DNA from: Pseudophaeobacter sp. EL27
GTDB lineage: Bacteria; Pseudomonadota; Alphaproteobacteria; Rhodobacterales; Rhodobacteraceae
Direction: 5' to 3'
DNA length: 64,000 bases
Assembly: GCF_900313025.1 (NCBI RefSeq)
Contig: NZ_OMPQ01000014.1
Location: forward strand, 3 to 64,002
Shown here: positions 35,603 to 61,522 of the stretch, in pieces
How positions within the stretch are numbered: position 1 is the stretch's first letter
Layout: each line of letters opens with the position of its first letter
The notes under the pieces: generated by a model
Database searches by the model: none
What the model was told of the DNA's origin: nothing
What the model saw: only the letters and a program-made list of their open reading frames with translations
Program-made: the position numbers and the translations under genes

Positions 35603-35647
35603 TTGAAAATCCTCGTGTCGGTGGTTCGATTCCGCCCCCGGGCACCA
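35603..35647 (+). repeat. attachment site att2 (copy of tRNA-Phe 3' end)
   Basis: These 45 bases are identical to tRNA-Phe 19385-19429, from the anticodon loop through CCA, but lack the 5' half of a tRNA. They form the junction between element 1 and element 2. Confidence 0.93.
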
Positions 35648-35745: not shown

Positions 35746-36933
35746 TTGGCAGAAGATTCCAAAAATCGAATTCTCAAAAACAAACCCCTTCGAAAGGGCT
35801 TGGCGATACTGCTGACAGCCCGCAGCCCCTACTGGCTCATTCGGTTGTGGGATCCGGTTGCTCAGAAATACGTCCATCGATCCTCCAAAGAAACATCCCG
35901 TGTGGAAGCGAGAGAAGCAGCCTTTGAGTTTGCGGATAATTTCCACAGCAAAGCCAACAGCGACCATGCCAAGAAGAAAACCACCAGCTTCGAGCATTAT
36001 GCCAAGAAACTGATGGCGATGCAGAAGGGCCAGTCCAAATGGTCCGAGGGTGACAACAAGCTGCTGAACCGAACAAAAGATGGTCTGATCTGCTATTTCG
36101 GCAAGCACGATGTCTCTAAGATCACCACGGGCATGGTTCGGGACTACCTGACGCACCTCGATGGGAATCGTAAAAGGCCATTGGCGCATTCGACCAAATC
36201 CAAACACGTCATCATCATTCGCAAAGTTCTGACGGTTGCTGTGGAAGATGGTGTCCTGAACGTCCTGCCGGTCATGCCGAAGATCAAAACCAAGGACACT
36301 CCCCGGCACACCTTCACAGACAAAGAATACAAGCAGTTCATGCGGGCTGCTGGCGAATGTGCCAAGCGTGGTGATGTGGTCCGGGGCGTTAAAATCACCG
36401 GCCACCATGCCAGGATGTTCCGGTTTGTCGTCCACACCTTCTTGCGCCCTACGGAAGGAGAGCTGTTTGGCCTGAAGCACAAAGATATTCAGGTTAAAGG
36501 TGAGCCTGCACACTTGGAAATGAACGTCCGTGGTGGCAAGACAGGTGGACGCGTGAGTGTCACCATGCCTCTCGCGGTTCCAATGTATCAGGGAAGTCTA
36601 AATCCCTTCGACAAGGGTGCTATCGACAAGGAAGCCTACGTCTGGATGCCGGACTATCCAAACCGCAGGACTGCCATCAACACCGCTCGACGCCTCTTTA
36701 ATCACATTTTGGCCGAGGCAGAGCTCGTTGATGAAGACCGAAAACTGTCTCCCTATTCGCTTCGCCACTATGCCATCCAAGCGCGGCTCAGAGGCTCCAA
36801 GGGAAAGGTGAACCTTTACACGCTGGCCAAGAATGCTGGGACATCTGTTGACCAGTTGGAGCGCTTTTATCTCAAAAACATGGCTCCAACCAAAGAACTG
36901 ATCGAGAACTTGCAGACCAAAGGCGATGATTGA
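35746..36933 (+). CDS. tyrosine integrase of element 2
   Basis: This 395-residue tyrosine recombinase has an N-terminal arm-binding region (SKNRILKNKPLRKG), a core-binding domain, and a catalytic domain. The catalytic domain includes HTFLRPTEGELFGLKHKD with the first Arg, SLRHYAIQARL with Arg-His, and the nucleophile Tyr in ERFYLKNM. The start is TTG, fitting the hairpin-bound GGG upstream. It lies 98 bases after att2 and reads away from it. It is about 97-98% identical in protein to the integrase of element 3 and unrelated to that of element 1, although all use the same tRNA. Confidence 0.93.
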   Translation: MAEDSKNRILKNKPLRKGLAILLTARSPYWLIRLWDPVAQKYVHRSSKETSRVEAREAAFEFADNFHSKANSDHAKKKTTSFEHYAKKLMAMQKGQSKWSEGDNKLLNRTKDGLICYFGKHDVSKITTGMVRDYLTHLDGNRKRPLAHSTKSKHVIIIRKVLTVAVEDGVLNVLPVMPKIKTKDTPRHTFTDKEYKQFMRAAGECAKRGDVVRGVKITGHHARMFRFVVHTFLRPTEGELFGLKHKDIQVKGEPAHLEMNVRGGKTGGRVSVTMPLAVPMYQGSLNPFDKGAIDKEAYVWMPDYPNRRTAINTARRLFNHILAEAELVDEDRKLSPYSLRHYAIQARLRGSKGKVNLYTLAKNAGTSVDQLERFYLKNMAPTKELIENLQTKGDD

Positions 36934-38636: not shown

Positions 38637-38706
38637 ATCTGTCAAAGGCCCGTTGCCCTCTCTGTATGACCCAAAGGACGCCATAGGGGTAACAAAGGAG
38701 ACCCCA

Positions 38707-39072
38707 ATGGCACTTGAGAAACAGTTCAAACTAGAAGCGGCAGAGAAGCCAAAAGCGATTCAGCCGTTTGCTCAGCGTCGTCAGAAGTTCATCGCTGCTG
38801 TCGAAAAGCAACTGGCCGGTGTGCCGGATGATGGGACCAGCACGATCACCAGCACATGGGTGTGGAAGTCAGATGATGGCGATTGGTTCATCTCGCCCCG
38901 TTATGGGAGAACGCCGCTTGAGCTGTCCCCCGGCCTGAATGCGATCAAATGTGTGGATGTGGGTGACGTCGCCAAGAACCTCCAAAAGCTGAAGACGCTC
39001 GCCGATGAGGGCACGCTGGATGATGTGTTGATGGAAGCCGCCACCACGATCCGCAGCCGCTTCGGCAAATGA
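38707..39072 (+). CDS. DUF6641-type small protein
   Basis: This 121-residue soluble protein (MALEKQFKLEAAEKPK) is followed by AQRRQKFIAAVEKQLAG and STITSTWVWKSDDGDWFISPRYGRTPLEL. I recall this pattern as the DUF6641 family, with moderate certainty. The ATG at 38707 has AAAGGAG six bases upstream, a strong ribosome binding site. It is the nearest gene upstream of the polymerase, separated by a long structured region. Confidence 0.65.
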   Translation: MALEKQFKLEAAEKPKAIQPFAQRRQKFIAAVEKQLAGVPDDGTSTITSTWVWKSDDGDWFISPRYGRTPLELSPGLNAIKCVDVGDVAKNLQKLKTLADEGTLDDVLMEAATTIRSRFGK

Positions 39073-40013
39073 GACAATTAGCGGGCTGGGAACCAGTTTG
39101 GTCAAAGGCCGAACTCAATACTCAGCCCGCCCAAACCAACCAACGAATAGAAATCTCAAGCACCTGCGAAGCACTTCACGAAGTGAAGCCATATGCCAAT
39201 CGTTGGTCAATTGCTTGATCCCTTCGTGATCAAGAACGGCGTTGGTATCTGATTGTAATATTTAAGTGTTTTGGATTTTGGACATACTTCTCCTATCCGT
39301 TGAGGAGAAGCCTGCAAGGCACAGCGGCCTGACAAACCATCTACACACGATTGCGTTCGACGCTCGGCTGGCGGTTATCCTGTCTCAGCCTACGTGCTGC
39401 TTACACAGCGGACCGATGTACTAGCGCCCTGTAGATGGCAATTTGGCTAGCTCGGCGACGGCACTTCCCCGTCTCGTGATGACAATTCATTTGCTCTGTC
39501 TCTCTCATGGGGGCTTTCATCCTTCCCCCGGCTTTCGCTGTCCCCTGACCCTACTATTCGATGACATCATGTCTGCTGACCTACTGGACTTCGGTTCGGC
39601 ACCATCCGGCGGAGATTACCTTCTGATCGCATGACGCTTCGGGCTGTCTATGTGGTTTTCTGTATCGCGTTCCTGATACGAAGAGAGCTTCGAGCTGTGT
39701 GGAATATGGCTATGTGTGTCGGTGGGTATCGATGTATGTTTCTGTGTGTGTGAGGTTATTTATGGGCTGACGGTTGGGACTTTTTCGGGGTATGGCGGAT
39801 TTGGGAGAATGTCCCACAGAAACTGTGTTTAGGGGCAGATTATCCCCCGAGGTCGGTAGCGAGCTCTAGTGATCATGACGAATGGTCAAAAATAGTAAAA
39901 GTGCCGTATGGGTGTGAGCGCATGACATTTACTATTTTTGCGATCTGGCGCAGGGTCGACTCATTGGATGATCCATAGCAGCCCTTCGTACCTTCAATAG
40001 ATCTGGAAACCGC
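39073..40013 (+). ncRNA. structured noncoding region upstream of polB (candidate RNA or origin)
   Basis: These 941 bases have no convincing gene but many hairpins. They include GCGGGCTG/CAGCCCGC (39081-39088 with 39123-39130), CTTCAC/GTGAAG over GAA (39174-39188), CTTGATC/GATCAAG (39214-39234), CTTCTCCT/AGGAGAAG (39287-39310), a long-range CCATCTACA/TGTAGATGG pair (39337-39345 with 39430-39438) enclosing smaller stems, and CACAG/CTGTG over AAA (39815-39827). The segment about 39640-39800 is G/T-rich on the plus strand. Such density suggests a structured RNA, a replication origin, or both. It is a candidate, not an identified RNA family. Confidence 0.45.
39887..39940. promoter_or_regulatory. 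13-bp inverted repeat before polB
   Basis: CAAAAATAGTAAA (39887-39899) and TTTACTATTTTTG (39928-39940) are a perfect inverted repeat separated by 28 bases. It ends 73 bases before the polymerase ATG. It could be an operator or an origin hairpin. The AT-rich arms stand out from the surrounding sequence. Confidence 0.55.
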
Positions 40014-42794
40014 ATGACCATCAAGCCTCAGTTTCGTCCAGATCAGTTTGGTCGCCGCAACAGCCCCAAGACCAAGTACCCTCGATATCTGATCATTGGC
40101 TTTGACACGGAGTATCAGCGTGAAGTCATCACAAATGCCGAGGGCAAAGTTGAGCTGAGGAACCAAGTTCTCTCATACCAGTACAGCTGCCGTATCATCT
40201 CACAAGAGAATGCTGATTTTGAGCCTCATTGGTCGGGTATCGTTCTGCCGGAAGGAACGGATGATGATGATCGTCTGACGCTAGCTGAATTCATCGAGCA
40301 TGCTCTGACAGCCGGGTTTAAGGCACTTCCAGATCAGAAGATGCCTGTCGATATCTATTTGGTGGCCCACTTCACCCGTGCGGATGTGCCGGGGTTCAGC
40401 GACTTTAAGGACGAAGCCAGCCGGTCGGCAATGAACCTCGAAAACATTCGGGGCCTCTTCATGAATGTTGAAAAAGACATCACGGTCAATCTGAGCTGTG
40501 GCAAGGGGTTCAAACCTATTCGGCTTGGCGTGAAGATCAGGGACACGATTGCTCTGGCCCCAGCAGGGGCAAAGAGCCTTGCTAGGTTGGGTGATATTCT
40601 TGGGTTTGAGAAACTGAAGCTGTCCGTCGACCCTGATGAAGAGCTGCGGCTTAAGCAGAACATGGCAGAAGTATTGGCGACGGACTGGGACCTGTTTCGT
40701 GAATACGCCATCCGTGATGCTGAGATCTGCGATCAGTACACCACTAGAATTATCCGGATGTATTTTGAGAGAACAGGCAGGTTCAAGCTGCCTGTGACAT
40801 TGACCTCAATCGGCGTCGATCTGATCCAAGAGTTCTGGAAATCTCAGGGACTTGATCCTCTGGCAGTCGTGGCCAAGGAGGAAGTGGTCGAGAAATACTG
40901 GAGCAAGAAAAAGGAACGCTTCCAGACTCGCAAGAGGACCGTTTCCACCAAAAAGATGCACTGGAACGAGGACTTTTTCACCGAGTGCTATCATGGCGGG
41001 CGCAATGAACAGTTTTGGTTTGGTCCAGCACCCGAAGGGGTTTGGTATGACTATGATCTGTCCAGTGCCTATCCATCCGGCATGGCGATCATTGGCAACC
41101 CGCATTGGGATACGATCAGGGCCATCAAAAGTACTGAGGAGCTTCTGACCAATTTTGAGCCTGATGATCTGGCCTACGCCAATGTAGATTTTGAGTTCCC
41201 TGAAGACGTCCGATATCCCGTTCTGCCAGTGCGGACGGAGAATGGGCTGCTGTTTCCGAGGAAAGGCAACAGCACCACCCATATCAGTGAGATCCTTCTG
41301 GCCAAGCGGCTTGGATGTAAAATCGATTTGGTTGAAGGGCGGCAGATCGATTCCGATAGGATCATCAGCAGGACAGAGGAGTTTTCCCCGGCCAAACGCC
41401 CCTTCTCTGGCTTTGCCCGCAACTGCATTGCGGAACGCTCCAAATACCCCAAGAAGTCTTTGGACAATCTGTTTTGGAAAGAGCTCGTCAACTCGACCTA
41501 TGGCAAAACTGCCCAAGGGCTGAGGGAGCGTCGGATATATGATTTGCGGGACGCTGAGACAAAACCTCTTCAGCCCAGCAAGATTACCAACCCAGTCTAT
41601 GCCGCCTTCATTACGGCCTTCTGTCGGGGTGTGCTTGGCGAGATCATGAATGCGCTTCCCCCTGAGGTGCAGATCTTCAGCGTGACGACGGATGGCTTTC
41701 TGACGACAGCAACAGACGAACAGATGCAAGCAGCTGCTTTTGGACCCTTGGGGCGAAGGTATTTGGATTCCCGTCGCAGGCTTGCAGGTGAGTGGGGCAT
41801 CTATGAAATCAAGCATGTCATCCGTCAACCTGTCGGGTGGCGAACCCGAGGGCAGGCCACTTTGCAGCCCTCCCAGTCTACAGATTGGGAGGGAACAGGC
41901 ATGACGCCCAAAGAGGACGAAAAGGTCGTTCTGGCCAAAGGCGGGATCAAGCTCGATGCGATGCTTTCCAAGAAGGAACAGAACGATGAAATCCTTCGTC
42001 TGTTCTTTGACCGCAAGCCGACGGACACAATGGTCGTCAAACTCGGGGCGGGCATTCGCGAGATGTACGAACAGGGAATGGACTTCGTTGACAAGACAAT
42101 GAACAAACGGTTGTCGATGGAATTTGACTGGAAACGGCGGCCTTATAGTGCTGGCGACGTGAAGGTGCCAAGCTCAGGCAAGCAAACCTATGACCACCTC
42201 GCGTTCTCAACCCAAGTATGGGACAGCGTGGACCAGTTCAACACCGTGCGGGCGATTTGGTCTGACTACAACAAACAAGCCCCCCATTGCCTGAAGACGT
42301 TGGAAGACTATCAGGCATGGGCTGAGTATTTTGAGGGCAAGCTGGCAGCCCAAGGAGAGGCTGGGGCCTATCTGGCCAAGGACGACGGCATTCTAAAGCG
42401 TGTGCGTAGGGATCTGATCATTGCTCACAAACTCCGAAAGGCTGGCACCCATGTTCTGAAGCCACACGCCTTTGGCAACACAAAGATCTTCCCGACCTAC
42501 AGGCTCAAGTCGCAGGAACTTGCTGACATTCTCAACGACGACCTTGGCATCCCTTGTTCGAAATTTGACGTCGACAATGCAAAGAAGAAGACCGCATTCA
42601 TTCCGCACCAAGTGCCGAACTGTGTGGAAGCTGTCACCGTCCTCAGGAAGGCCAAACGGTATCTGTTCCCCCAACTGGACATCGATCAGTTCCTGACGCC
42701 GAAGGCAGCGTTCAATCTCGATGTGGAGAAGGCGGATATGACCCTGCACCCGCGTGATCCGTTGGAGGGGTGGGGTTCGACGGTCGAGAAGTAA
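40014..42794 (+). CDS. family-B DNA polymerase, probable primer-independent (piPolB-like) type
   Basis: This 926-residue polymerase has a 3'-5' exonuclease domain: Exo I FDTE (Asp31, Glu33), an Exo II-like AHFTRAD, and Exo III YAIRD (Tyr231, Asp235). The family-B palm motifs follow: motif A DLSSAYPS (Asp348), motif B KELVNSTYG (Lys489, Asn493, Tyr496, Gly497), and motif C TTDGF (Asp560), where the first Asp of the usual DTD is Thr but the catalytic second Asp is kept. A C-terminal extension of about 350 residues follows. Size, motif C and location in a tRNA-integrated element with recombinases fit the piPolBs of pipolins. Protein-primed PolB is the alternative. Only the PolB fold is certain. 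Confidence 0.85.
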   Translation: MTIKPQFRPDQFGRRNSPKTKYPRYLIIGFDTEYQREVITNAEGKVELRNQVLSYQYSCRIISQENADFEPHWSGIVLPEGTDDDDRLTLAEFIEHALTAGFKALPDQKMPVDIYLVAHFTRADVPGFSDFKDEASRSAMNLENIRGLFMNVEKDITVNLSCGKGFKPIRLGVKIRDTIALAPAGAKSLARLGDILGFEKLKLSVDPDEELRLKQNMAEVLATDWDLFREYAIRDAEICDQYTTRIIRMYFERTGRFKLPVTLTSIGVDLIQEFWKSQGLDPLAVVAKEEVVEKYWSKKKERFQTRKRTVSTKKMHWNEDFFTECYHGGRNEQFWFGPAPEGVWYDYDLSSAYPSGMAIIGNPHWDTIRAIKSTEELLTNFEPDDLAYANVDFEFPEDVRYPVLPVRTENGLLFPRKGNSTTHISEILLAKRLGCKIDLVEGRQIDSDRIISRTEEFSPAKRPFSGFARNCIAERSKYPKKSLDNLFWKELVNSTYGKTAQGLRERRIYDLRDAETKPLQPSKITNPVYAAFITAFCRGVLGEIMNALPPEVQIFSVTTDGFLTTATDEQMQAAAFGPLGRRYLDSRRRLAGEWGIYEIKHVIRQPVGWRTRGQATLQPSQSTDWEGTGMTPKEDEKVVLAKGGIKLDAMLSKKEQNDEILRLFFDRKPTDTMVVKLGAGIREMYEQGMDFVDKTMNKRLSMEFDWKRRPYSAGDVKVPSSGKQTYDHLAFSTQVWDSVDQFNTVRAIWSDYNKQAPHCLKTLEDYQAWAEYFEGKLAAQGEAGAYLAKDDGILKRVRRDLIIAHKLRKAGTHVLKPHAFGNTKIFPTYRLKSQELADILNDDLGIPCSKFDVDNAKKKTAFIPHQVPNCVEAVTVLRKAKRYLFPQLDIDQFLTPKAAFNLDVEKADMTLHPRDPLEGWGSTVEK

Positions 42795-42846: not shown

Positions 42847-43737
42847 CTAGAAAGGAAGTCCGCTATCTATCTGACTTTGGGTGTGTTTGACAAAGCTCTC
42901 AGCAGTATCGATCACTTCAGTAACATACAGCTTGTCGAAGACATTTAGCTGTGTGCCGCTCTTGTCCATTCCGTTCCTGTGGACGCAGTCATGCCGGTAT
43001 CCAATGGCTTTTTTAATAGTCGTGAGCGCGTTACGGTCTGGGCGGATCGTTATGCCAAGTGCTTTTTTGTAGAGTTTCGCAACTTCGTCTATCTTGTGAT
43101 AAAGCCTGTTTTTTAGGCTGGCCTCAATCATGCTTTTTACCAGGTCACTTCCGTCCAAGACATCTGTGAGACCGATTTTGATTTCGGAAAGTGATCCGTC
43201 TCCTGCAATCAGCTTCTTCATAGCATCATTTGACTTTGTAACTTCGATGATAAACGCGTCGCAGAAGTAGGCTTCAAATGCAGCGATGACCTGGGCGAAG
43301 ATCATCCGATTCATTAGGGCTTCAGGGTCCATGCTGCCGTGCTTCTTCAGCATTTCTCTCAGCTCGGATGTCGTCGTCATAAAGATCTGGTAGGGGTCCT
43401 TTGGGAGTTCATAATCGTCCCAGTCATCTGGTTGAGTGTAGTAGGGAATATCCGCATGAACTGTAACGTCTGAATAGTCGTCCAACTCAATTGAGCAATG
43501 CGAGGGGCCTGCGTAAGCATATGCGGAGAAACAGGTCTCGCATTCTGGGCAAACGACTTCCGCCACGTCGTCAGTTTGCATGTCGGAAGATTTTTCACCG
43601 CCAAAAAATGGCTCAGGAACAGCGACTTCTGTTAGGACTGTCTTTTTGCACTCAGGGCACGTGAAGTGGACTCTAGAGACAAACCTCTGGGTGTTTTCCC
43701 ACATTTTTTCGATAACGTAATCGGTTGTAGCTGACAT
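42847..43737 (-). CDS. zinc-ribbon HEPN-domain protein
   Basis: This 296-residue protein has an N-terminal zinc ribbon (FTCPECKK and VVCPECETC) and a C-terminal helical domain with RHDCVH (Arg248 to His253). That is an R-x4-H motif as in HEPN ribonucleases. The helical stretch MIFAQVIAAFEAYFCDAFIIEV is like that of abortive-infection HEPN proteins. ATG 43737 follows AGAGAGGG. It faces polB tail to tail. A role as a phage-triggered RNase is inferred. Confidence 0.65.
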   Translation of the reverse strand: MSATTDYVIEKMWENTQRFVSRVHFTCPECKKTVLTEVAVPEPFFGGEKSSDMQTDDVAEVVCPECETCFSAYAYAGPSHCSIELDDYSDVTVHADIPYYTQPDDWDDYELPKDPYQIFMTTTSELREMLKKHGSMDPEALMNRMIFAQVIAAFEAYFCDAFIIEVTKSNDAMKKLIAGDGSLSEIKIGLTDVLDGSDLVKSMIEASLKNRLYHKIDEVAKLYKKALGITIRPDRNALTTIKKAIGYRHDCVHRNGMDKSGTQLNVFDKLYVTEVIDTAESFVKHTQSQIDSGLPF

Positions 43738-44003
43738 CGGTGCCCTCTCTGGCAATCGTTCCCACTACATTGCTCCCGAACGACCCTAAATGACGTATGG
43801 TTGAAAGTAGGTTTTGTTATTCCCTCAATGTGGACAGCATGTTGCTGTCAGAAGCAATAGTGTTTGAGGCGGAAATCGTCGCACCCTGTTCGTTCAGCAA
43901 TCTGAATCCAACAAGAGGAAGACACTTTGATCCAAGTCATGGAACACTCCCGTTAAACCAGGGTGAATACTGCTCATTGAAAACACCCATTGGGAGAATC
44001 ATT

Positions 44004-44482: not shown

Positions 44483-45133
44483 CTAGGTTGGCCTCACGCC
44501 ACTGGAAGCCATATCTGAATAGTTCCTCACAGTCTGAGGGTACCATTTCCCACCTTTGGCAGTTCGGACGCCTCTGTCGTTCAACAGTCGTGCGGTTCCC
44601 GAAAACGTCCCAGCCTCGGCAATCGCCTGTTCAAAATCGGTCCGTATCGTTTCGAAGAATTCCTGCTTCTCTAATCGTCGTTGAGCGGCCAGCGCCAGAG
44701 CATTCCGACCAAGCACGGTCCCTCGCTTCTTTGCCACTCTGAGTGCCGCTCTGGTGCGTTCTGAAATCTGTCGGCGTTCCTCTTCGGCAAAACAGGCCAG
44801 CAGGTGCAGGAAGAAGGTCGAGACGTTTGGATGCTCACAAACGACCAGTTCGACGCCTTGGTCGATGATCCCCGAGATGAATGACACCTTCCGAGAGAAC
44901 CTGTCCAACTTCGGGATCAGTAGCTTGGATCGGGTCTTCTTGACTAGGTTGATTGCGTTCCACAGCTCGACCCGGTCGTCACGCTTGCCAGACTGGATTT
45001 CCGTGAACTCGGCAATCACCGTGTCATGCGGCTGAAGGAACTGCTCAACCATCGAACGCTGGGCTTCCAGCCCCAGACCAGACCGCCCCTGCCGTTCCGT
45101 CGAAACCCGATAGTAGGCAACGTATTCTGTCAA
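44483..45133 (-). CDS. serine recombinase (resolvase family)
   Basis: This 216-residue resolvase-type protein starts at a TTG with GGAGGG seven bases upstream: MTEYVAYYRVSTERQ with the catalytic Ser11. It continues through the core (SGLGLEAQRSMVEQFL and LLIPKLDRFSRKVSF) to a C-terminal helix-turn-helix-like end (RLLNDRGVRTAKGGKWYPQTVRNY). It may resolve multimers of the excised polymerase element or be a former integrase. An in-frame upstream extension to 45205 lacks a ribosome binding site. Confidence 0.88.
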   Translation of the reverse strand: MTEYVAYYRVSTERQGRSGLGLEAQRSMVEQFLQPHDTVIAEFTEIQSGKRDDRVELWNAINLVKKTRSKLLIPKLDRFSRKVSFISGIIDQGVELVVCEHPNVSTFFLHLLACFAEEERRQISERTRAALRVAKKRGTVLGRNALALAAQRRLEKQEFFETIRTDFEQAIAEAGTFSGTARLLNDRGVRTAKGGKWYPQTVRNYSDMASSGVRPT

Positions 45134-45509
45134 ATCGAACCCTCCGTATAAAACAAACCTTGGTTTGTCGTGTAAGGGGTCCGAAAGTTGGACAGTGTTG
45201 GGCAACGGTCGAGTAGAGGCTTGGCCGATTGGCTTTGCCCAGATGGCCGCTATGCGCAGATTGGGTACTTTGCAAAGTCAAGCCGTTTTCCCAAAGCGGA
45301 CCATCAGTGACACGGTCGCAAAGGTTGCTCTAAACCTACTTAGGGCAGTTCGCTTTGATCCTAGAGCCGCACGCAACGCTGATTGTTTTGGCCATTTCCC
45401 AGATCAATTTGTGTAGGCAAAATGCGAGATTTGGACTGCGAAATGTTCTGAATCCCTCGTAAGAAACATTCCTATTCAGCGCGAGGCCAATGGAAGCCTT
45501 GCTTGGCAT
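45134..45509. other. intergenic region without recognisable genes
   Basis: These 376 bases separate the resolvase start from the end of the large helicase gene. Apart from a short stem (GTCC/GGAC near 45179-45193), nothing is recognised. The resolvase promoter should be in its left part. Confidence 0.5.
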
Positions 45510-48500
45510 TCAACTGGGTTCGCCTTCCAAGCAGGCCCTTATCACGTCAACGATCTTGGTAGGATTATCCCGCCATTCCCGCGAGGTGACGGTCACAGCC
45601 TTCCAACCAAAAGCTTCCAGCAGAATGGCACGTTCAGTCAAAACTTCTAAAGTGGCATGGTTCGCATAGGTCTCTTTTCTATCGATCAGAATGGCCAGCT
45701 TAAAGTCTGGTTCATCCGCGTGGCGGACGGCGACATCGACGCAAAAGCGGGACATGCCGTGGTTGACCACTGCAACAATTCCGCGCCTTTGCAAGGCATC
45801 GGCAATCTGTTCTGCGGCCACATTCACAGGTTTTTCGTTCCGGTCCACATTGCTCATTACCGCCTTAAGGGCCAGACCTGCTCCTTGCCTATCTCCGGTT
45901 GAGGCAAGTTGCGCATACCGCAAGAAAGTCTTCAGCGCGTTGGCACCTGCATTATAGTCGTTGGTGATCTGCTCAGAGGTGATCGACGACACAACGATCA
46001 TGTTTTCCTTCGCACGCGAAAAGATAACATTCAGGCGCTTTTCGCCTCCGACCTTGTTGATGGGGCCAAAGTTCATCCGCATCTTACCATTTTCCGGCGG
46101 AGCATAGCAGATCGACAGCAAAATGATGTCTCGTTCGTCGCCCTGTACATTCTCGAGGTTCTTTACGAAAAGCCCGATGAATTCGCCATCACTTTCGCGT
46201 TCAAATTCAGTTTCGAGCTGGCGAGAAAAGTCCTTGTCGGTACGTGCCAGATCTCTCAAAGCGGTTTCAATCTCGGATTGCTGCGCCTCCGAGAAGGCGA
46301 CGATGCCGATCGTTTTGTGACTTTCCTGAGCAAGGATGTCGCGCAGCAGATGGGCGATATAGCGAGCTTCTTCGGCGTTTCGCCGCAGGGCATAAACACC
46401 CTCATTGATCATATGATAGGAAATTGGACGCGCCAAAATCTCGGATGCGGTTAGCGGGGGAGCCCCTGCATCCATCACATCGATTTGAGGTTGCGCCTGC
46501 CGGTTGTGTGTCGCCGGAATCGTCAATAACTGCCCATTGTAAAAGGCCCCGTTGGAAAAGCTTATCAGCTCTTCGCTGCGCGATCGATAGTGCCAGCTAA
46601 GCATCGTCGATTTCAACCGTTCTGCCGCAAGGGTCAGAAAGCTATCCTGCTCCAATTCAAAGTTCAAATCTTCTTCAGCATCATCAAAACCCTCGGCAGC
46701 GTCACTACTGCCAAAGAACTTTGACGGCGGGAGCTGCATCTCATCTCCCACAACGATGATCTGCGGAGCGCGCATCAATGTTGGCACCGCATCTTCTACT
46801 GGAATTTGCGATGCCTCGTCGAAGATCACCACATCAAACAGATCGGAATCAAGTGGCAGCACATCCGCCACTGAAAGCGGGCTCATCAACCAGATCGGCT
46901 TCATGTCCGGTATCAATGCTCCGGCAGGACCACCTAACATTTCGCGCGGCGACCGATAGGCACGGGTCTTTTTGAATTCATGTTCTAATGCCCGACGCGC
47001 CTTGGCATAGGATGACTTGTGCGCCCGGTCTTCCATCGACAGGTTGCGATCCATTTCAGCGGTCAACGCGATATGGGTGTCAAAGGTTTCCATGGCACGC
47101 AGTTCCAGCAGACTCGCATTGACCTTTTGCAGGGCCTTCCGGCTCTCTGCGATCTTTGCACGAGCCCGCTCAAGCATGGCATGATCAATAGCCGACAGGC
47201 CAGGAGTCTGGACCACGCTGCGGCGCACAGTCTCAGACAGGATTTCTGCGTGCAACTGATCTGTTGATAAATCAAGGTTGCGCAAACAACGCCAGATCGA
47301 TGCAGGCGCTTCTGCCAGCGGTTGCAACATGAACTTCAGATCACGCAAATGCGGCCGGCTGAGTGCGAGCGCATCAAGCACCAGAGCCAACTCAGACAGT
47401 GGCAATGTTTCCAGCCCGTCAATCAGGCCGGTAGCTTCTTCCAACAGCCCTTCGACCACAGGAGCGTGGCGGGCCAACGCCAGCACCTGACGCTCCGAAG
47501 CGGCCGGATCACTCGCCACGTTGGCCAGGATCGGGTCTACTGCGACCCCTTCTGCCATTCTCCCTGCCGCCCGTTCCGCCACAATTGTGGAAAGGACTGT
47601 GAAATCTTCAAATCCATACCGCCCAGCAGTTTGCCGTTTGGTTTCAACCAGTACCGCTCTGGCTGTATGTTCAGCATCAAGCTGCGATAGAAGATCTACC
47701 ACAGTGGGAGCAACAGCGGCATCCACCGTCCGTGTGCGCGACGAAACGGTTTTTTTCAATTGCCGCCAAGGGCCAGACAGGAACGACAGGAATTTGCCTT
47801 CTTTGTCCTGCGCCAGCCGCAGCGCTGTTTTGGTTTCATCAGGGGTCAGCCGCTGGGTCCAGGCGGATGCCTTTTCAGCTGCCGCAGCTAAGGCACGCTT
47901 TTTCTCCTCTACCAGGCGCAATTCGCCCTTGAACTGGCGGCTTTCGCGGCTTGCAGGGTCCAGCAGGCCTAGTTGTCCCACCTCTGCCATTGCGGCAACA
48001 CGCGCAGCAAACCGAATTTGCGCAAACCCAGCACCCGCGCTGGTGATCTCACCAAACAGGTCGGCGCTTATTCCGGTCAACAGCTTGGCGCGCGACGCCA
48101 GATTTGCGGCCCGTTCCGGCACCTGATCCAGGGTCTTGTCATCTGCCCAGACCGCCGGGGCCAACAGTCTTTCGGGTCGTTGCGACAGACACTGCCCCCC
48201 TGCCAAGCCTTTGGTTCCGGTCAGCGCCCGGTCTACGGCATCCTCATACTCCAACCAATCCGACAGATCAGGCAACAGGTCCCGATCATCATCGTCCAAA
48301 CCGGTCGCAGGGGCGCTCAGCGCGCGGTCAATCACGGAATAAAGCGCTTCATTTGTCCCAACCGCAGCGGAGGACATGGCCTTGATATGCACGCGCACAT
48401 CAGCAAGCGCTTCTGAAATACGTCTTAGCAGTGCCGTACGTTCATCCGTCAGCATGGCCGTGGTCTTTGGACGAGCCTCACTGGTCCAACGCGTGTAGAT

Positions 48501-50633
48501 CTCCTCCATCTCTTGAATGAAATCGCGCTTGTTTTGCTGACTGTCGTGCACAAGACTACACAGAGCCCCAAGGCCCACGCCCGTCAAACGGTTGAACACC
48601 ACATCCAAAGCGGCGCGTTTTTCACAAACGAACAGCACACGTTTCCCTTGCCCGATGAAGTCCGCAATCAGGTTGGTGATGGTCTGTGATTTGCCCGTAC
48701 CAGGCGGGCCCTGAATGACATAACTTTCCCCACTGCGAGCATTCAGAACCGATTTTTCCTGACTAGGATCCATTTCGATGACTGGATAGCGATGTTCCGG
48801 CTTGGGAAGGCTGGGAATGCCACCAGTATCAAAATTGCGTTCATTGAACAGCAGATCAAAGGCGGGATTTGGAGGCAATTCACCCGCCAAGATGGAGTCA
48901 TAATCCCGCACTAGAGACATTTTTCGATAGTTAAAGTTGGCAAGGGTTACCGAGCAAAGATCAAAGCTCCAGTTAAAGCGTCCATCAGTGTCCTGCGCCG
49001 AAGAAAACGTTGTCGCCTCACGTTCTGCCATTGCAGGATCGACCACGTGAGAGGTACTGAACATCCGAGGCAGTGCCCGCCCCATCACGGCCTGATTGGG
49101 AGCCTGCGCAGGTGTGACGTATTCTTTGAATAGCTGTAGCCCCAGCGGGTTGAACCCAGGATGCTCATAGGAATAGCGAAGCCCAGATCGCGCCCGCCTG
49201 CCTTTAACTATGCCAACGCGGCGCTTGTTAAATTGATCTAGGCGGCGGCGCACCTTTTGGTGCAATACCTTGATACGCGGTTTGTCTGCATATTCCAGGC
49301 GTACACCGGGCTCGCTGGACAAAATCTGGGTCTCGATAAGTTGATAGAGATCCTGCAGGGCCTCCGGCTGAGACATGTCCACCGTTCTTGGCAGTTTGAT
49401 GCCAAACAGCTTTTCCAACGCAAAGGATAAGGCCGGATTGACCTCGGCCACTGTATCAAGAGCTTTTAGGGTGAAGACATCCTTTACCCCCTTGCGGCGC
49501 TTCAATTCTGCCCGCAGCAACAAAAGCGGCGAGGAAATCGGCACATGCGGATCGTTCTTCAGATCATACCAACGCAGGAATACGGGCACCAAACGCAGTG
49601 GGGCTGCCCCATATTCCCGCGCAACCCGCGCACTTTCTGAGCGTAGCTTGGACAGGACTGATGGCGCAAACTGCATCTCTTCAAAACGAATGTAATCCCG
49701 CAAGGCAACCTCTTTGCCCGACAGCAGCATTTGCATGGCACGGGCATCTGCGGTGAACAGTTCTTCGGATTTGATCGCCTGAAAATTCATAACCAAAGGC
49801 ACGGATGTTTCTGTCAGGTTCAATTCGGTCGAGACAGGCTTGTGGTAGATCAGTCGATTGCGCCTAGTCATATCATATAGCCGGGCGCGCAAACGCTTAA
49901 GCAACTCACCTCTGGGCAAATTGGCATCTGTCCCGAATGAAGCACTCGTTGTCAGTTCATTGTCAAAAACTGAACCGATCATGCGATGGTTTTCAAACGC
50001 GCGGATCAGGGTGGGCATGTCTTGTGCTCGGTTGAACCGTTCCAACTCGGTCATGCGCTCGATCGCGCGACAGATCACCGGGCTAAGCCGATTGTTCAAC
50101 TGAGCCAAATCACTGCGATAGCGGGTAAAGGTTTCGAGCTGTTCCTTCTGCCGAAAATCAAGACCGGTCGCCAGTGAACCGATGATCATTCCCAGCCCAT
50201 AGATGTCAGTGATCGGGTCGTGATGGCCTGCTTCGACCTCCCAGGACCGGTAATGGGTTAAAAAAAGTGGACCGGCTTCGGCATCCTCTACAACTTTTGC
50301 GTCATGCACGTTGGTTCCGGTTGTGTCATCAGAAGTCACTCTGAGTTCACTCACGACCTTGATACCGCTCTTGGCCTGCAAGTCCTTGCGACTGCGAACC
50401 GCGCGGTCCGATGCCGGTGCACTTGCATCGGTCTGAATAAAGAACAGATGGCCATGATCCGTTTTCAGCTTAGCCAGCGGAAACAACGGAGCCACTTGTC
50501 CGGCATCATGCACCTCAGCGACCTGCTGCATCAGGGGCAAAACGGCGGCCAACAGGTCCTCATTCCCGATTGAATGCGTTTCATTCCAGCTTTCAAGAAG
50601 CTCAAAGAAACCATGTTCTGCAACATCAATCAT
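45510..50633 (-). CDS. pseudokinase-DUF4011-SF1 helicase-nuclease fusion
   Basis: This 1,707-residue protein starts at ATG 50633, which overlaps the upstream stop (ATGATTGA). Residues 1-230 look like the C-lobe of a kinase fold (VHDAGQVAPLFPLAKL, then HDPITDIYGLGMIIGS) without an HRD or DFG, hence a pseudokinase. Around 240-330 is a DUF4011-type segment (LKRLRARLYDMTRRNRLIYHK). The SF1 helicase core has Walker A GPPGTGKS near residue 640, Walker B FDEASQIP near 1268, and GDEMQLPP after it. The last 120 residues (LAILIDRKETYAN, AILLEAFGW) look like a Vsr/MTES_1575-type nuclease. DUF4011 helicase-nuclease fusions are known as the Hhe defence protein; the kinase-like start and protease partner here are unusual. 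Confidence 0.8.
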   Translation of the reverse strand: MIDVAEHGFFELLESWNETHSIGNEDLLAAVLPLMQQVAEVHDAGQVAPLFPLAKLKTDHGHLFFIQTDASAPASDRAVRSRKDLQAKSGIKVVSELRVTSDDTTGTNVHDAKVVEDAEAGPLFLTHYRSWEVEAGHHDPITDIYGLGMIIGSLATGLDFRQKEQLETFTRYRSDLAQLNNRLSPVICRAIERMTELERFNRAQDMPTLIRAFENHRMIGSVFDNELTTSASFGTDANLPRGELLKRLRARLYDMTRRNRLIYHKPVSTELNLTETSVPLVMNFQAIKSEELFTADARAMQMLLSGKEVALRDYIRFEEMQFAPSVLSKLRSESARVAREYGAAPLRLVPVFLRWYDLKNDPHVPISSPLLLLRAELKRRKGVKDVFTLKALDTVAEVNPALSFALEKLFGIKLPRTVDMSQPEALQDLYQLIETQILSSEPGVRLEYADKPRIKVLHQKVRRRLDQFNKRRVGIVKGRRARSGLRYSYEHPGFNPLGLQLFKEYVTPAQAPNQAVMGRALPRMFSTSHVVDPAMAEREATTFSSAQDTDGRFNWSFDLCSVTLANFNYRKMSLVRDYDSILAGELPPNPAFDLLFNERNFDTGGIPSLPKPEHRYPVIEMDPSQEKSVLNARSGESYVIQGPPGTGKSQTITNLIADFIGQGKRVLFVCEKRAALDVVFNRLTGVGLGALCSLVHDSQQNKRDFIQEMEEIYTRWTSEARPKTTAMLTDERTALLRRISEALADVRVHIKAMSSAAVGTNEALYSVIDRALSAPATGLDDDDRDLLPDLSDWLEYEDAVDRALTGTKGLAGGQCLSQRPERLLAPAVWADDKTLDQVPERAANLASRAKLLTGISADLFGEITSAGAGFAQIRFAARVAAMAEVGQLGLLDPASRESRQFKGELRLVEEKKRALAAAAEKASAWTQRLTPDETKTALRLAQDKEGKFLSFLSGPWRQLKKTVSSRTRTVDAAVAPTVVDLLSQLDAEHTARAVLVETKRQTAGRYGFEDFTVLSTIVAERAAGRMAEGVAVDPILANVASDPAASERQVLALARHAPVVEGLLEEATGLIDGLETLPLSELALVLDALALSRPHLRDLKFMLQPLAEAPASIWRCLRNLDLSTDQLHAEILSETVRRSVVQTPGLSAIDHAMLERARAKIAESRKALQKVNASLLELRAMETFDTHIALTAEMDRNLSMEDRAHKSSYAKARRALEHEFKKTRAYRSPREMLGGPAGALIPDMKPIWLMSPLSVADVLPLDSDLFDVVIFDEASQIPVEDAVPTLMRAPQIIVVGDEMQLPPSKFFGSSDAAEGFDDAEEDLNFELEQDSFLTLAAERLKSTMLSWHYRSRSEELISFSNGAFYNGQLLTIPATHNRQAQPQIDVMDAGAPPLTASEILARPISYHMINEGVYALRRNAEEARYIAHLLRDILAQESHKTIGIVAFSEAQQSEIETALRDLARTDKDFSRQLETEFERESDGEFIGLFVKNLENVQGDERDIILLSICYAPPENGKMRMNFGPINKVGGEKRLNVIFSRAKENMIVVSSITSEQITNDYNAGANALKTFLRYAQLASTGDRQGAGLALKAVMSNVDRNEKPVNVAAEQIADALQRRGIVAVVNHGMSRFCVDVAVRHADEPDFKLAILIDRKETYANHATLEVLTERAILLEAFGWKAVTVTSREWRDNPTKIVDVIRACLEGEPS

Positions 50634-51807
50634 TGGGCACCTCCACAAGTGCCTTGCGCAGTGACACCAGCTTTTTCTTGGGCACACCAAGGTCTTTGGT
50701 AATGCGCGGTGTAATCGCATCCGACAGCCCGTATTTGTCGGCAAACTGCATTGCTTCCAATAACGGTTCGTCTTCAAGATCCGGATCCGCAGCTGCAAAA
50801 TCTAGCAGAACCGATGCCATGTAATCCTTCACGTCATCACTTGCCTCCGGCAGGCGGGACAGTTCTGTGTCATCGGATGGGATCATTGTGCGGTCAAAAT
50901 CTGGGAAGTAAGCGCGGGCGTGCGCCTCGATCTCTTCGGACTGAGCCCAATCGGCGCTCAGAAGTTTCTGTATCGTCAGGCGGGTCAGATCGGTCAGTTT
51001 GCGCTGCGCCAGCAGGTCCAGCCGTTCCAACTGGTCATCACCTTCCACCAACTTGGGAAGACGCGCGTCAGCGGTCTCTTTGTCCTTGGCCCAATCGGCA
51101 AGAGCAATCGCGCGGATGTAGGTTTCAGGATGTGATCCCCCCTGCGATCCGTCCTTCTTGCTTAAATCAAGCGCCTCCGCTGCCTGTTCGAGATAGGTTT
51201 CAACCGAAAACTTCTTCAACCCGGACCCAACCTTGATCAGCAAGGAAATTGCTGCATCCCGGTTCGCACAAACCATAAGGCCGACCCGGTCAGCAAAAAT
51301 CTCCTGATAGATCTGCGACAGCCAGAGCGACTGCAGATGCGCAGGATGCGATCCATTTTCCCCGCAAATCCACCCCAGCATCCGATCAGCCGTGAAATAC
51401 CGCCCATCCTCGCGGGTCTTGTGCAGGTAATGCGCCATCTCATGACCCAGCAGGCAGCGCAACTCAGCGTCGTTGAGAATATCAATGATCTCGCCCTCAA
51501 ACATGATGTTGATTTCATTGGGGGTATAGATCAACGCGGCATTCCGATGACTTCCCGTGCCCTGAAAAAGGTTGAGCGGCACGTCAATCTCAAGCGCTTT
51601 TTTCACTTCGCCCACAACAGCGAACAATCTGTCATGCGACCCTGCGTCCAATCGCACTGCATTTTTCAGCAACATCAGTCGATTTTCATCAAAGGCCTGT
51701 TCTGTCAATTTGTCAGAGGCAAACCAAGCCCAGGTATCGGCTTCTTCGCGCTGCAAAAAATCGGCGAGGGCGTTGTGGTAATTCAGGAATGGCGGGATTT
51801 CGGACAA
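50626..51807 (-). CDS. M48-like metalloprotease coupled to the helicase-nuclease
   Basis: This 393-residue soluble protein has a zincin motif HEMAH (His122, Glu123, His126) and a downstream E-x-x-x-D (EIFADRVG) typical of M48-type proteases. There are no membrane segments. The C-terminal half is helical. Its stop overlaps the start of the large helicase gene by eight bases, so both are made together. A protease activated on infection, acting with the helicase-nuclease, is a plausible but unproven idea. Confidence 0.75.
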   Translation of the reverse strand: MSEIPPFLNYHNALADFLQREEADTWAWFASDKLTEQAFDENRLMLLKNAVRLDAGSHDRLFAVVGEVKKALEIDVPLNLFQGTGSHRNAALIYTPNEINIMFEGEIIDILNDAELRCLLGHEMAHYLHKTREDGRYFTADRMLGWICGENGSHPAHLQSLWLSQIYQEIFADRVGLMVCANRDAAISLLIKVGSGLKKFSVETYLEQAAEALDLSKKDGSQGGSHPETYIRAIALADWAKDKETADARLPKLVEGDDQLERLDLLAQRKLTDLTRLTIQKLLSADWAQSEEIEAHARAYFPDFDRTMIPSDDTELSRLPEASDDVKDYMASVLLDFAAADPDLEDEPLLEAMQFADKYGLSDAITPRITKDLGVPKKKLVSLRKALVEVPND

Positions 51808-57327: not shown

Positions 57328-57749
57328 ACTTGCCGCATTAGTGTTCTTCTTGTTGCCCGCGATGTAGATTGCGCCGGAGACAGTGGCAACGAGTCGGCAT
57401 ATGGGTATGGTCCTAGCTGTTTGGATGTCGCAAGGTCTGCGCCTTTTCAGGCAAAAGGGTGGATCTCTGCCATTCTCTGCATATGCGGGTTTGTCCCGTT
57501 GGTTCACAAAAGAAACCATTCACGACAGAAAGCTCATGCGGTCCCAATGTCGGTTGGTGCCTCTATGTCAATACTGCACTCCACATCAAACTTCGCGATA
57601 TTGGCTTGTTCCCGCATGCATTTACGCCCTAAGTTGTGAAAAATACTAACATATGACAATCAAACAGACGTTCGAACTGCCCATTTCTACTCTATGACAA
57701 TCGATTCGGAAGTTTGGCGGCAAGCGTATTGAGAGATGCCAAGAAAAAA
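57328..57749. other. gap between the nuclease-like gene and hamA
   Basis: The 422 bases hold no convincing gene. Open frames here lack family resemblance and good starts. The hamA promoter may lie here, as AT-rich stretches near 57640-57720 suggest. Confidence 0.45.
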
Positions 57750-58709
57750 ATGACCGCACCACTGGACACCGATTTCCAAGAAAAACTAGAAGCCGCCATT
57801 TCAGGTGGTGCGAGCGTCACTGACTCCCATTTGCATGTGGTGGAGCGCGACTTAGTGGTTGATGGTACCAAGACGACCGCGCACTGCTACATACCAACCC
57901 TCGACGGGAATGGGCGATTGCGGATTAAGCTTCTCGTCGAGTTCTTGCGTAATCGTGTCGTTGAATACGCTGTTCCACCGTCCAAATTGCAGCAAGCGAA
58001 AAAAGAACTGAACGAAACCGGTTCGCCTGCAGCCTTGGCGAAACTTCACGAAGAAGCAAAGAGGTCGTTCACCTCCCTGAAGACAACCGGGGAAGGTGGT
58101 GAATTCTTGCTTTTTGCGCTTGCAGAAAAAGAATTCAAGCTGAAGCAAATACTCTGCAAAATGCGATTAAAAACAAGCTCATCCATGCACTATCACGGTG
58201 CCGATGGCGTGTATGCCTCAGGTGGTGAAGACGGATACTTCAACCTGTTCTGGGGTGAGTCAAAGGTCTACGCTGACGCGAAAAAAGCCATAAAAGCTTG
58301 CCTTAAGTCGCTTGCTCCATTCCTAACTGAAGAGCTGGGTGAAGACGCAGAAAACGCACGAGACATTCTTCTCCTAAACGAATACTCAGACCTCGCAGAT
58401 GGGCATCTTGAAACTGTCATCAAGAGCTTTCTTAGCCCTGATGATCCTGCCTCGAAAAAGCTCCGGCTTTGCGGTTTCGCACTTGTCGGCTTTGATGACG
58501 AGGCATTCCCCTCCGAAGGTGAAACAGCGGACTTCAATCAAATCGTCAGCACCATACAGGGGCAACTTGATAACTGGAAAAAGTACATTGGCAAACGTGT
58601 TGAAGCGGAGAACCTAAAAGTTTTTGACATTCATTTTGTTTGTATCCCCATGCGCTCGGTAGAGGATTTTCGGGCATACTTTCTAGAAAGTCTTGGGGTG
58701 GCAAAATGA
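57750..58709 (+). CDS. hamA: Hachiman anti-phage protein HamA (DUF1837)
   Basis: HamA is the nuclease subunit of the Hachiman defence system. The 319 residues contain GEFLLFAL (Glu118), KMRLKTSSSMHYHGADGVY (Asp152) and WGESKVY (Glu170, Lys172). These form the PD-(D/E)xK-like core of the DUF1837 domain. The N-terminal half is mixed alpha/beta. ATG 57750 is chosen; a frame extension back to 57714 lacks a standard start. The stop TGA overlaps hamB ATG (ATGA). Confidence 0.85.
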   Translation: MTAPLDTDFQEKLEAAISGGASVTDSHLHVVERDLVVDGTKTTAHCYIPTLDGNGRLRIKLLVEFLRNRVVEYAVPPSKLQQAKKELNETGSPAALAKLHEEAKRSFTSLKTTGEGGEFLLFALAEKEFKLKQILCKMRLKTSSSMHYHGADGVYASGGEDGYFNLFWGESKVYADAKKAIKACLKSLAPFLTEELGEDAENARDILLLNEYSDLADGHLETVIKSFLSPDDPASKKLRLCGFALVGFDDEAFPSEGETADFNQIVSTIQGQLDNWKKYIGKRVEAENLKVFDIHFVCIPMRSVEDFRAYFLESLGVAK

Positions 58710-61318
58710 GTGGAACGGACCTTCAAAAATGGATCGTGTCCGATCAGGGGGTGCGAGACGATATCCGAAATCTTCGTGGCTGGCACGCACGGCGAAGCTT
58801 GGGTAAGGACACTGTTGACTGCAACGAAAAAGAAACAGACAGCCCAAACTGGCGTAAACTTCTACTTGCATCCAGTGTCCTCGCTGAAAGTGAGGACATT
58901 GGGCACCAAGAAACATCCCTAATGATCGCTCAAGCGGCAATGCAATTTGGCGATACAACGACGGTGAGGGACGCAGGAGCAGTAGTCCTTACACAGCTTT
59001 CCAACTCTCGCTCGATCTCTCTGGCAGAAGAACGTGGTCTAATTGCCGGAGGGATTCTGGAAAGGTTGGGGGTCTCAGAGACCTTATTGGCTAATCGTAG
59101 ACTGCTTGAGTCTTCCATCGTCTTATCCGATTCAAACGCAATCGCCGGAAACAGTTTTCAGATCAAGCTTTGGGATCGACTCAAGGATTCTGATTGGGTC
59201 TCTGCAACAGCACCAACGGCAGCAGGAAAGACCTACCTCGTTCTGAACTGGCTATTAAGGCAATTCCAAGACTCGTCATGCGGGCTTGCTGTGTTTTTGG
59301 CACCGACAAGAGCACTCGTCAGTGAAATCGAAAACGAACTTGTGGAGCTAAGCAAATCTTTCAAGCTTCCCTCGCTACGAGTTTCCTCCCTACCGGTCCC
59401 CGAGTTTGGAGACCTAACCGAACCTACGATACTTGTTTTGACACAAGAACGCCTGCACCTCTTTCTGAACGGCTTTGATGTTGCTCCAGAGATCGACATC
59501 ACGATTGTTGACGAAGCCCAAAAGCTCGGAGACGGTGACAGAGGTGTGCTTCTTCAAGACGCTGTAGAGAGAATTTACCGAACAAATGAAAGTGGCAAGT
59601 TCGTATTTCTCAGCCCACATTCAGAAAACCCGGATCTATTGTTGTCTGACGCTCCGTCGGACAGCTCGAAGTCAGCGGTCCCGGGGGGAGCACCGACAGT
59701 TACGCAGAACTTGATCGCTGCAGAACAGGTTTTTCGCCACCCGCAAGAATGGACACTTTCCTTCGTGGGTAGCGAGGAAGATGGACCATTCGGCAAAATC
59801 ACTCTTCACGACCGGCATGAAGGGTCTCCACGAAAAAAACTTGCCTATGTTGCCCTAGCACTCGGTCAGAAGAACCAAGGCACTTTGGTTTACGCGAACA
59901 GACCCTCGGATGCGGAAAAGATTGCGAATATCATCTATGCCGGACTTGAAAGAGAGATCGACGACGAGATCGTGGATGAAGAACTGCACGATTTATCAGA
60001 ATTCTGCAAAACATCTATCCACCCAATGTTCCAGCTTGTTCCGCTGGTCAAACGAGGCGTTGCTTTTCACTACGGGAACATGCCCGCAATCTTGCGCAAC
60101 GAGATCGAAAGACTGTTTCGCACCGGCAAAATCCGTTTCCTCGTTTGTACTTCGACACTCATTGAAGGAGTCAATCTCGCCTGTCGAACTATTGTTGTGC
60201 GTGGACCGAAAAAGGGCAATGGCAAGTACATGCTCCCTCAAGACTTTTGGAACCTTGCTGGCAGAGCTGGGCGGTGGGGGGCGGACTTTACTGGCAACAT
60301 TGTGTGCGTCAACACGACAGATAAATTGGCTTGGCCCACTGGAGTGCCACCAAAATCCAAGTTCGTTCTTGCCCGAGAAACCGACGCGGTTCTAAACAAC
60401 TCAGAGAACCTTATTGAGTACGTTGAGATGCGTACCGCTATCAAACCGCATGCAATCGACACCGAAAAGGAGGCCGTGACTGCCTATCTTCTTTCGTGGT
60501 TCGCTCGAAACGAGAGTGTTGCAGATTGCCCATCCATAAAACGAGTACCAGTTGAGTTTGTCCCACAAATTGACTTTGCGCTCAGGACTGCTTCCGCACA
60601 AGTCAGGATACCAGCAGAGCAAATCACAGCTCATCCCGGTATTAGTTCGGTGGCCCTCCAGGCGCTTCTCGACTCTTTCACCGAATCCGAGTTGGAACCA
60701 GAGGACCTGCTGCCACCTTGGCCTGAAAGCGACGACGCGGCGCCTCAACTGAAGCAAGTGTTAAACCGGATCAATGAGCACATGGCTTCCAAGTTCGGCA
60801 ATGATGCCTATCAATGGGCATGCACTTTCACGACTCTGGACTGGATGGGGGGCAAGCGGATCGCGCAAATGATCCGGGGCGCAATAGATCGTCATAAAAA
60901 GAACCACCCCGAAGAAGCTGACGAGGATGTTCCCTACGCGAGCCTTATCAGAAAGACGTTCGAAATGGTCGAAACCGTTGCGAGGTTTTTAGCTCCGAAA
61001 TATCTCTCCGCGTACCTTGATGTTCTACGCCTTCACTATGAGGAACAGGATCGGCTGGATGAATTCCCAGAAAACCTTAAGCTCGATTTATTTTTAGAAT
61101 TTGGCGTTAGCACTGACACCCTTCTTTCATTGATTGGTCTTGGTTTGTCGCGAACCTCTGCGATTGAAGTCAATGAGTACCTAGCTCGCAGTGATATGTC
61201 TAAGCAGGAAGTCGCAGATTTTCTACGTAACGGATTGTGGGAAACGTTTGACCTCCAAAATGTGGTGAAGCGAGAAATTCGATACGCAATTCAGCGCGAC
61301 TATTCCTCTATCGAGTAG
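58706..61318 (+). CDS. hamB: Hachiman anti-phage helicase HamB
   Basis: HamB is the DNA-sensing superfamily 2 helicase that controls HamA. Over 870 residues it has APTAAGKT (Walker A, residues 169-176), APTRALVSE, DEAQ (269-272), TSTLIEGVNL, and motif VI NLAGRAGRWG (516 onward). The C-terminal part is a helical extension. It begins in the hamA stop (ATGA), a standard coupling for these genes. No truncation is seen. Confidence 0.88.
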   Translation: MSGTDLQKWIVSDQGVRDDIRNLRGWHARRSLGKDTVDCNEKETDSPNWRKLLLASSVLAESEDIGHQETSLMIAQAAMQFGDTTTVRDAGAVVLTQLSNSRSISLAEERGLIAGGILERLGVSETLLANRRLLESSIVLSDSNAIAGNSFQIKLWDRLKDSDWVSATAPTAAGKTYLVLNWLLRQFQDSSCGLAVFLAPTRALVSEIENELVELSKSFKLPSLRVSSLPVPEFGDLTEPTILVLTQERLHLFLNGFDVAPEIDITIVDEAQKLGDGDRGVLLQDAVERIYRTNESGKFVFLSPHSENPDLLLSDAPSDSSKSAVPGGAPTVTQNLIAAEQVFRHPQEWTLSFVGSEEDGPFGKITLHDRHEGSPRKKLAYVALALGQKNQGTLVYANRPSDAEKIANIIYAGLEREIDDEIVDEELHDLSEFCKTSIHPMFQLVPLVKRGVAFHYGNMPAILRNEIERLFRTGKIRFLVCTSTLIEGVNLACRTIVVRGPKKGNGKYMLPQDFWNLAGRAGRWGADFTGNIVCVNTTDKLAWPTGVPPKSKFVLARETDAVLNNSENLIEYVEMRTAIKPHAIDTEKEAVTAYLLSWFARNESVADCPSIKRVPVEFVPQIDFALRTASAQVRIPAEQITAHPGISSVALQALLDSFTESELEPEDLLPPWPESDDAAPQLKQVLNRINEHMASKFGNDAYQWACTFTTLDWMGGKRIAQMIRGAIDRHKKNHPEEADEDVPYASLIRKTFEMVETVARFLAPKYLSAYLDVLRLHYEEQDRLDEFPENLKLDLFLEFGVSTDTLLSLIGLGLSRTSAIEVNEYLARSDMSKQEVADFLRNGLWETFDLQNVVKREIRYAIQRDYSSIE

Positions 61319-61424
61319 AGAATTTCCTTATTTTTATCAAAGCACTACAGGGCAAATTTCATATAGTTGCACACAAAATTCGACACTCACATATAACTGC
61401 CTGATTTCATTATTGGTAATGTGA

Positions 61425-61469
61425 TTGAAAATCCTCGTGTCGGTGGTTCGATTCCGCCCCCGGGCGCCA
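61425..61469 (+). repeat. attachment site att3 (variant copy of tRNA-Phe 3' end)
   Basis: This matches the 45-bp tRNA-Phe end except that the discriminator A is G at 61466 (GGGCGCCA instead of GGGCACCA). Two bases before it (61423-61424) also match the tRNA. It marks the junction of element 2 and element 3. Confidence 0.9.
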
Positions 61470-61522
61470 TTAAGTCACTGAAATAGATTATTTATTTGGT
61501 TCGTTGAAGCCTTAGAAATTCT

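Follow-up and report, generated by a model that had tools for sequence, protein, structure and literature searches.

The piPolB family comprises DNA polymerases that are able to start DNA synthesis without a primer, and the enzyme described here is assigned to it from sequence. Among pipolin genes, that for uracil-DNA glycosylase is frequent but not defining. Pipolins, their att sites at tRNA genes and their restriction-type cargo are already published (PMC9710591, PMC7385651), and the piPolB of Escherichia coli is given as UniProt P0DPS1 (PMC7385651). In the former, alphaproteobacterial pipolins occur in a figure legend, Staphylococcus epidermidis and Lactobacillus fermentum are named as hosts of pipolin plasmids, and it is said to be unclear what piPolB does biologically (PMC9710591).

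The 64-kb stretch of DNA analysed here (the window) carries an element, termed element B, which is like the chromosomal pipolins of E. coli in its SVTTDGFLT motif C, its tyrosine recombinase, its integration at a tRNA gene and its restriction-type cargo. It differs in that tRNA-Leu is nearby in E. coli instead of tRNA-Phe, that the two polymerases share only 31% identity (over 763 aa, E 2.7e-102), and that the E. coli loci examined have neither the dyad described below nor an annotated serine recombinase. The plasmids pSE-12228-03 of S. epidermidis and pLME300 of L. fermentum, which we take to be the pipolin plasmids of these hosts, encode polymerases of the same group as that of the window in our tree, and the polymerase of pSE-12228-03 is at best 28% identical to it. 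Genes for a serine recombinase and a relaxase are present on this plasmid as well. Both plasmids are circular, with no integrase listed in the regions examined, whereas element B is integrated.

Organization of the tRNA-Phe island

The tRNA-Phe gene is located at 19355–19429, and its 3' end is present three times, within the gene and as the two att copies listed in Table 1. In a search of the whole own genome, the only match besides these copies was a weak one of 36 bases on a different contig. The three copies show that the island is a tandem array: bounded by att sites, it consists of two tandem elements, A and B, and a remnant. Element A (~19.4–35.6 kb) contains its own tyrosine integrase, a type I restriction-modification system, Fic and a relaxase, while element B (35.6–61.4 kb, ~26 kb) contains the polymerase, its own integrase and Hachiman cargo. 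On the 3' side of the third att there are another integrase (61568–62755) and an ORF of 187 aa that Pfam does not match, and then dnaE2- and imuB-like genes. This integrase shares 94% DNA and 98% protein identity with that of element B, and is taken as the remnant of a third element. The dnaE2 and imuB genes are host-like and lie a few kb beyond it. The integrase of element B itself has no match in NCBIfam, and it is called a tyrosine integrase because its 98%-identical copy matches Phage_int_SAM_5 (3.8e-8). The marks of an integrated pipolin, a tyrosine recombinase and direct repeats of att type at a tRNA gene, are both found, the type of the recombinase being read from the SAM-like domain of the near-copy. 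The original prediction had placed a tyrosine and a serine recombinase between tRNA-Phe att repeats; both recombinases are there, but the single island it described had element A merged in. No empty site was revealed by a genome of the same genus (G340), in which 16 kb from the tRNA-Phe region had no match to dnaE2 or imuB. Moreover, the two ends of element B (600 bp each) share no inverted repeat, which is weakly consistent with a circular form.

Table 1. Features of element B (positions in the window)
Feature	Position	Strand	Evidence
Left att, copy of the tRNA-Phe 3' end	35603..35647	+	45/45 identical
Integrase (tyrosine recombinase)	35746..36933	+	SAM-like domain of near-copy; homologues in 7/7 relatives with 5' flank
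p139, small conserved protein encoded 5' of the non-coding region	38707..39072	+	7/7 relatives with 5' flank
Conserved non-coding block, 450 bp, candidate origin or cis-acting region	39270..39720	.	87–93% identity, 6 relatives
Dyad, 52 bp, centre TATGGGTGT	39887..39940	+	Two arms of 16 bp (94% complementary) around a 22-bp spacer
piPolB (sequence-based assignment), 926 aa	40014..42794	+	ATG start, Pfam, homology, tree, motifs
HEPN-like protein	42847..43755	-	RiboL-PSP-HEPN 8.6e-05, 23 bits, below Pfam cut-off 28.4
Serine recombinase, resolvase type	44483..45205	-	Resolvase 7.7e-25
Helicase-nuclease protein (DUF4011, AAA, MTES_1575), cargo	45510..50798	-	Pfam; PADLOC PDC-S37 1.2e-189
Hachiman HamA + HamB, cargo	57714..61318	+	Pfam, PADLOC
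Right att	61423..61471	+	48/49 identical

The coordinates of p139 start at a conserved Met (the ORF as listed begins at 38653), and the protein matches PHROG 31551. Among the element B ORFs scanned with Pfam, which did not include small ORFs or the integrase at 35746, no uracil-DNA glycosylase was matched, and there was no Cas1 match that would point to a Cas1-like casposase among the 15 ORFs scanned. The ORF at 54133–55323, part of the cargo, has a Tle1-like phospholipase catalytic domain (1.2e-78). As had been predicted, the neighbours of the polymerase are defence-like, with Hachiman and other defence-like genes around it (PADLOC), and these genes look like cargo.

Relatives and distribution

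Eight related loci were found, and in the seven that include the 5' flank (L002–L008) the order is always tRNA-Phe, a homologue of the element B integrase, p139 and the polymerase. A second att copy is present within the flanks examined in three of the seven (L003, L005 and L007). Homologues of the serine recombinase occur in L002–L005 and L007–L009, and also in L028 and L033, while none was found in L006. Among the 11 other ORFs of element B that were compared (10-kb flanks), only the HEPN gene (in L008) and the GYF gene (in L004 and L009) recur. This bears on the suggestion, made in the original prediction, that the polymerase itself acts in phage defence. Although defence-like genes surround it, the polymerase belongs to the shared core and not to such sporadic genes, and PADLOC gives no match to it, so that a defence role is not supported and appears very improbable.

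A match to the polymerase was found in 10 of 394 genomes of the family; among these ten, the gene is a remnant with stops in G045, partial in G238 and split in two in G327. In a sample of the phylum 4 of 398 genomes matched, the window's own included and one by a weak C-terminal match only, and the own genome (4.55 Mb) has one such match. The piPolB loci further off adjoin other tRNA genes or none. L006 and L030 (G327) are the same place, and so, apparently, are L009 and L025 (G238). The record of L009 is named Nocardioides marinus, a name which is probably wrong since the same place occurs in G238, from the window's own family. In G327 the two parts of the polymerase gene (L030:6980-9229 and L036:796-1461) are separated near residue 731 by ~11 kb of other DNA. 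The polymerase at L007:9938-12289 is missing its first 169 residues, the non-coding region upstream of it is mostly gone, and the dyad is 3' of the gene. In addition, a Pseudosulfitobacter plasmid (L045:7608-13152) carries a divergent piPolB-like gene in two pieces flanking IS66-family genes, and 30 plasmid records of this kind match.

The polymerase is assigned to piPolB

The predicted coordinates of the polymerase ORF proved exact, including its ATG start and 926 aa. The protein matches Pfam DNA_pol_B_2 (3.3e-10, above cut-off) and two PHROG DNA polymerase families. The exonuclease and palm motifs claimed for it, Exo I, II and III and motifs A, B and C (TTDG, 558–561), align with those of other PolBs. 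The E. coli piPolB aligns to residues 26–773; the long C-terminal part noticed earlier lies beyond residue 773 and is real, as it is conserved among the close relatives. Six polymerases from elements found in this bacterial family are 86–71% identical to it and five that are more distant 61–42%, and the match to PRD1 is weak (E 2e-6 over 179 aa). No relative was found in the PDB by sequence search, and a profile search gave only two chance-level matches. A structure prediction from a six-row alignment was set aside (mean pLDDT 37.9). As to E. coli, the gene of the polymerase compared here (L059) is matched by both published piPolB PCR primers without mismatch, which is not so for a variant gene (L055). 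The variant is matched in 299 of 5,426 complete E. coli genomes, nearly all at 60–80% identity, and 285 of the 299 matches cover at least 80% of the gene length.

In a tree of 27 rows, from which casposon PolBs were left out, a branch with support 100/99 separates 21 piPolB rows, including E. coli piPolB, pSE-12228-03 and pLME300, from the other six. These are phi29, PRD1, Cp-1, ABV and His1 (viral pPolB-type) and Pol II. Thus the phylogeny that had been proposed as a check groups the polymerase with piPolB, and the placement with protein-primed polymerases that had been named as speaking against the prediction was not found. Because of long branches and odd composition, about which the tree tool warned, the deep branch order is unsure, also within the piPolB group.

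All 21 piPolB rows have TDG in motif C, and piPolBs are described as lacking the first Asp of this motif (PMC7544198). The motif is DTDS in phi29, PRD1, Cp-1 and Pol II. However, ABV and His1 also lack this Asp in our alignment, and the motif C mark alone is therefore no proof of piPolB. Furthermore, residue 346, which is two positions N-terminal to Asp 348 of motif A, is Asp in 21 of 21 piPolB rows and in none of the six other PolBs. For archaeal B2, another Asp has been proposed as replacement for the lost one (PMC7544198). Such a part for D346 is weakened by ABV and His1, which lack both the motif C Asp and Asp346, so that Asp346 is tied to piPolBs and not to the loss of the motif C Asp. 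Homology, motif C and the tree together identify the polymerase as a piPolB.

The protein-primed PolBs of phi29, PRD1 and Cp-1 share aligned Exo I–III and motifs A and B with the polymerase of the window, but differ from it in motif C, in having no Asp at 346 and in their annotated terminal-protein gene. Since that gene lies just upstream of the polymerase in all three, p139 could by its position be a terminal protein and the polymerase protein-primed. We regard this as extremely improbable: tree and motif C place the enzyme with the piPolBs, p139 is ~940 bp away from the polymerase, the 600-bp ends of the element share no inverted repeat, and p139 has no likeness to the small protein before the E. 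coli piPolB (hhalign, probability 0.4%). A search for a terminal protein gene gave no match of the annotated types, in a comparison which did not include p139 and for proteins which are poorly conserved in sequence.

A conserved non-coding block and a dyad at the polymerase gene

Between p139 and the polymerase gene there is a 450-bp non-coding block (Table 1), whose identity in L030, L004, L005, L028, L008 and L003 is 92.9, 90.2, 89.5, 89.4, 88.9 and 87.2%, respectively. In the same order, the DNA identity is 71.3, 72.8, 70.4, 80.5, 73.6 and 71.7% for the polymerase and 86.6, 78.3, 79.6, 87.9, 86.9 and 71.1% for p139, and that of the integrase is 75–79% in these six relatives; the block is more conserved than all three in six of six comparisons. 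In L030 the block is the most similar of the six but the polymerase gene is only distantly related, so that recombination between parts of the element contributes as well. About 100 bp of the block is retained in L007, and L002 has only short pieces of the wider region. The block occurs once in the own genome and in 4 of the 394 family genomes, all within the ten with the polymerase (one as a 75-base piece at a contig end); it is missing from the other six and confined to a close group. It does not look coding, because its 93 variable columns are spread evenly over the three codon phases (34, 33 and 26). No DnaA box is found in the block, and the nine in the 64-kb window compare with 8.1 expected. 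Neither the block nor the dyad was matched in plasmids, and two patterns for the block and one for the dyad gave 0 matches in viral contigs. Outside the block, a 24-bp palindromic motif (39165–39188) is exact in L003 and L007 and repeated in L003.

The dyad was found in 15 copies (E < 0.001) in 14 loci, two of them in L003. It is near the polymerase in the window, L002–L005, L007–L009, L028, L030, L031, L032 and L037, and lies ~6 kb from it in L033. A further dyad is 9.5 kb from the polymerase in L069 (G178), a weak one (E 0.01) precedes it in L029, and L037 may carry a weak second copy. The dyad can be 5' or 3' of piPolB (3' in L007, L009, L031 and L037), in both orientations, and is shared by piPolB elements whose polymerase identity is as low as 42%. 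Over the 15 copies, 84.9% of the cells pair and both partners differ in 6 of 15 pairs, a number reached in 0 of 500 shuffles, which ignore relatedness; controls slid along the sequence gave 0–4 pairs. As a pattern with up to two mismatches, the dyad is present in seven of the ten genomes with a polymerase match and in none of the other 384 of the 394, and the reversed pattern gave one match. The association (Fisher p 4e-13) comes from related genomes, six of the seven having supplied sites for the pattern, and the fair test is therefore its absence from the 384 together with the new match in G178. The pattern is not matched in G237, G224 and G045, and G224 has a match to the model (L031). With E up to 10, the model found no dyad in 16 other loci, including those of E. 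coli, Staphylococcus, Fusobacterium, L. fermentum and Helicobacter, which means that some pipolins do without the dyad. In pSE-12228-03, a perfect dyad of 12 bp with a 22-bp spacer was set aside, having no visible sequence likeness.

The block might be a non-coding RNA gene or a control region of the polymerase gene, as piPolB follows it immediately in seven elements and as it forms several predicted hairpins; of the 122 predicted pairs, 6 differ in both partners. However, its folding is no better than that of shuffled sequences (z 1.19 and 0.08 for the two strands), the term for covariation is close to zero (0.24), there is no Rfam match, and a scan shows no sigma-70-like promoter or terminator, which makes this explanation rather unlikely. 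Moreover, the dyad changes side and orientation and can be kilobases away, as would be expected of a function for the whole element more than of a promoter.

The strongest rival to an element-wide role as origin is a recombination site, either res-like for the serine recombinase or a point of cargo entry. Most close relatives have the recombinase among their core genes, and an arrangement of mostly one dyad per element on either side of piPolB would fit this too; L033 and L069 carry cargo-sized ORFs between the dyad and piPolB, and the two dyads of L003 flank ~1.3 kb. We nevertheless find it distinctly unlikely, because the dyad also occurs in L031, L032 and L037, where the stretches examined show no recombinase homologue, a spacer of 22 bp is long for a crossover site, and the 450-bp block would be left unexplained. 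The block and dyad are most likely a candidate replication start or initiator-binding site, an assignment that we hold tentatively, at somewhat less than an even chance.

Proposed mechanism and significance

Considering all of this, element B is probably a pipolin of ~26 kb integrated at the 3' end of tRNA-Phe. We assume that its integrase would excise it as a circle and insert it at tRNA-Phe, that piPolB would copy the circle, starting without a primer or a terminal protein, and that the block and dyad before the gene may be where replication starts or an initiator binds. The resolvase-type serine recombinase might then resolve circular multimers, and the defence genes would be exchangeable cargo. 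The original prediction of a new pipolin-like element stands with regard to the pipolin, on homology, motif C, tree, att sites and integrase, while it is new only as this member.

The element is of a known kind, and the part that is new to us is the conserved non-coding DNA before piPolB. Our literature search, which did not reach the main subscription papers, found no pipolin origin or conserved pipolin cis-element. That the block and dyad are the origin at which piPolB starts without a primer, and would be the first cis-acting replication site of pipolins, is a possibility we consider somewhat doubtful. A compact conserved cis-element tied to piPolB offers a defined place to ask if the polymerase starts copying an element in the cell, and where, and the named relatives are roseobacters, which are amenable to such work in laboratory strains.
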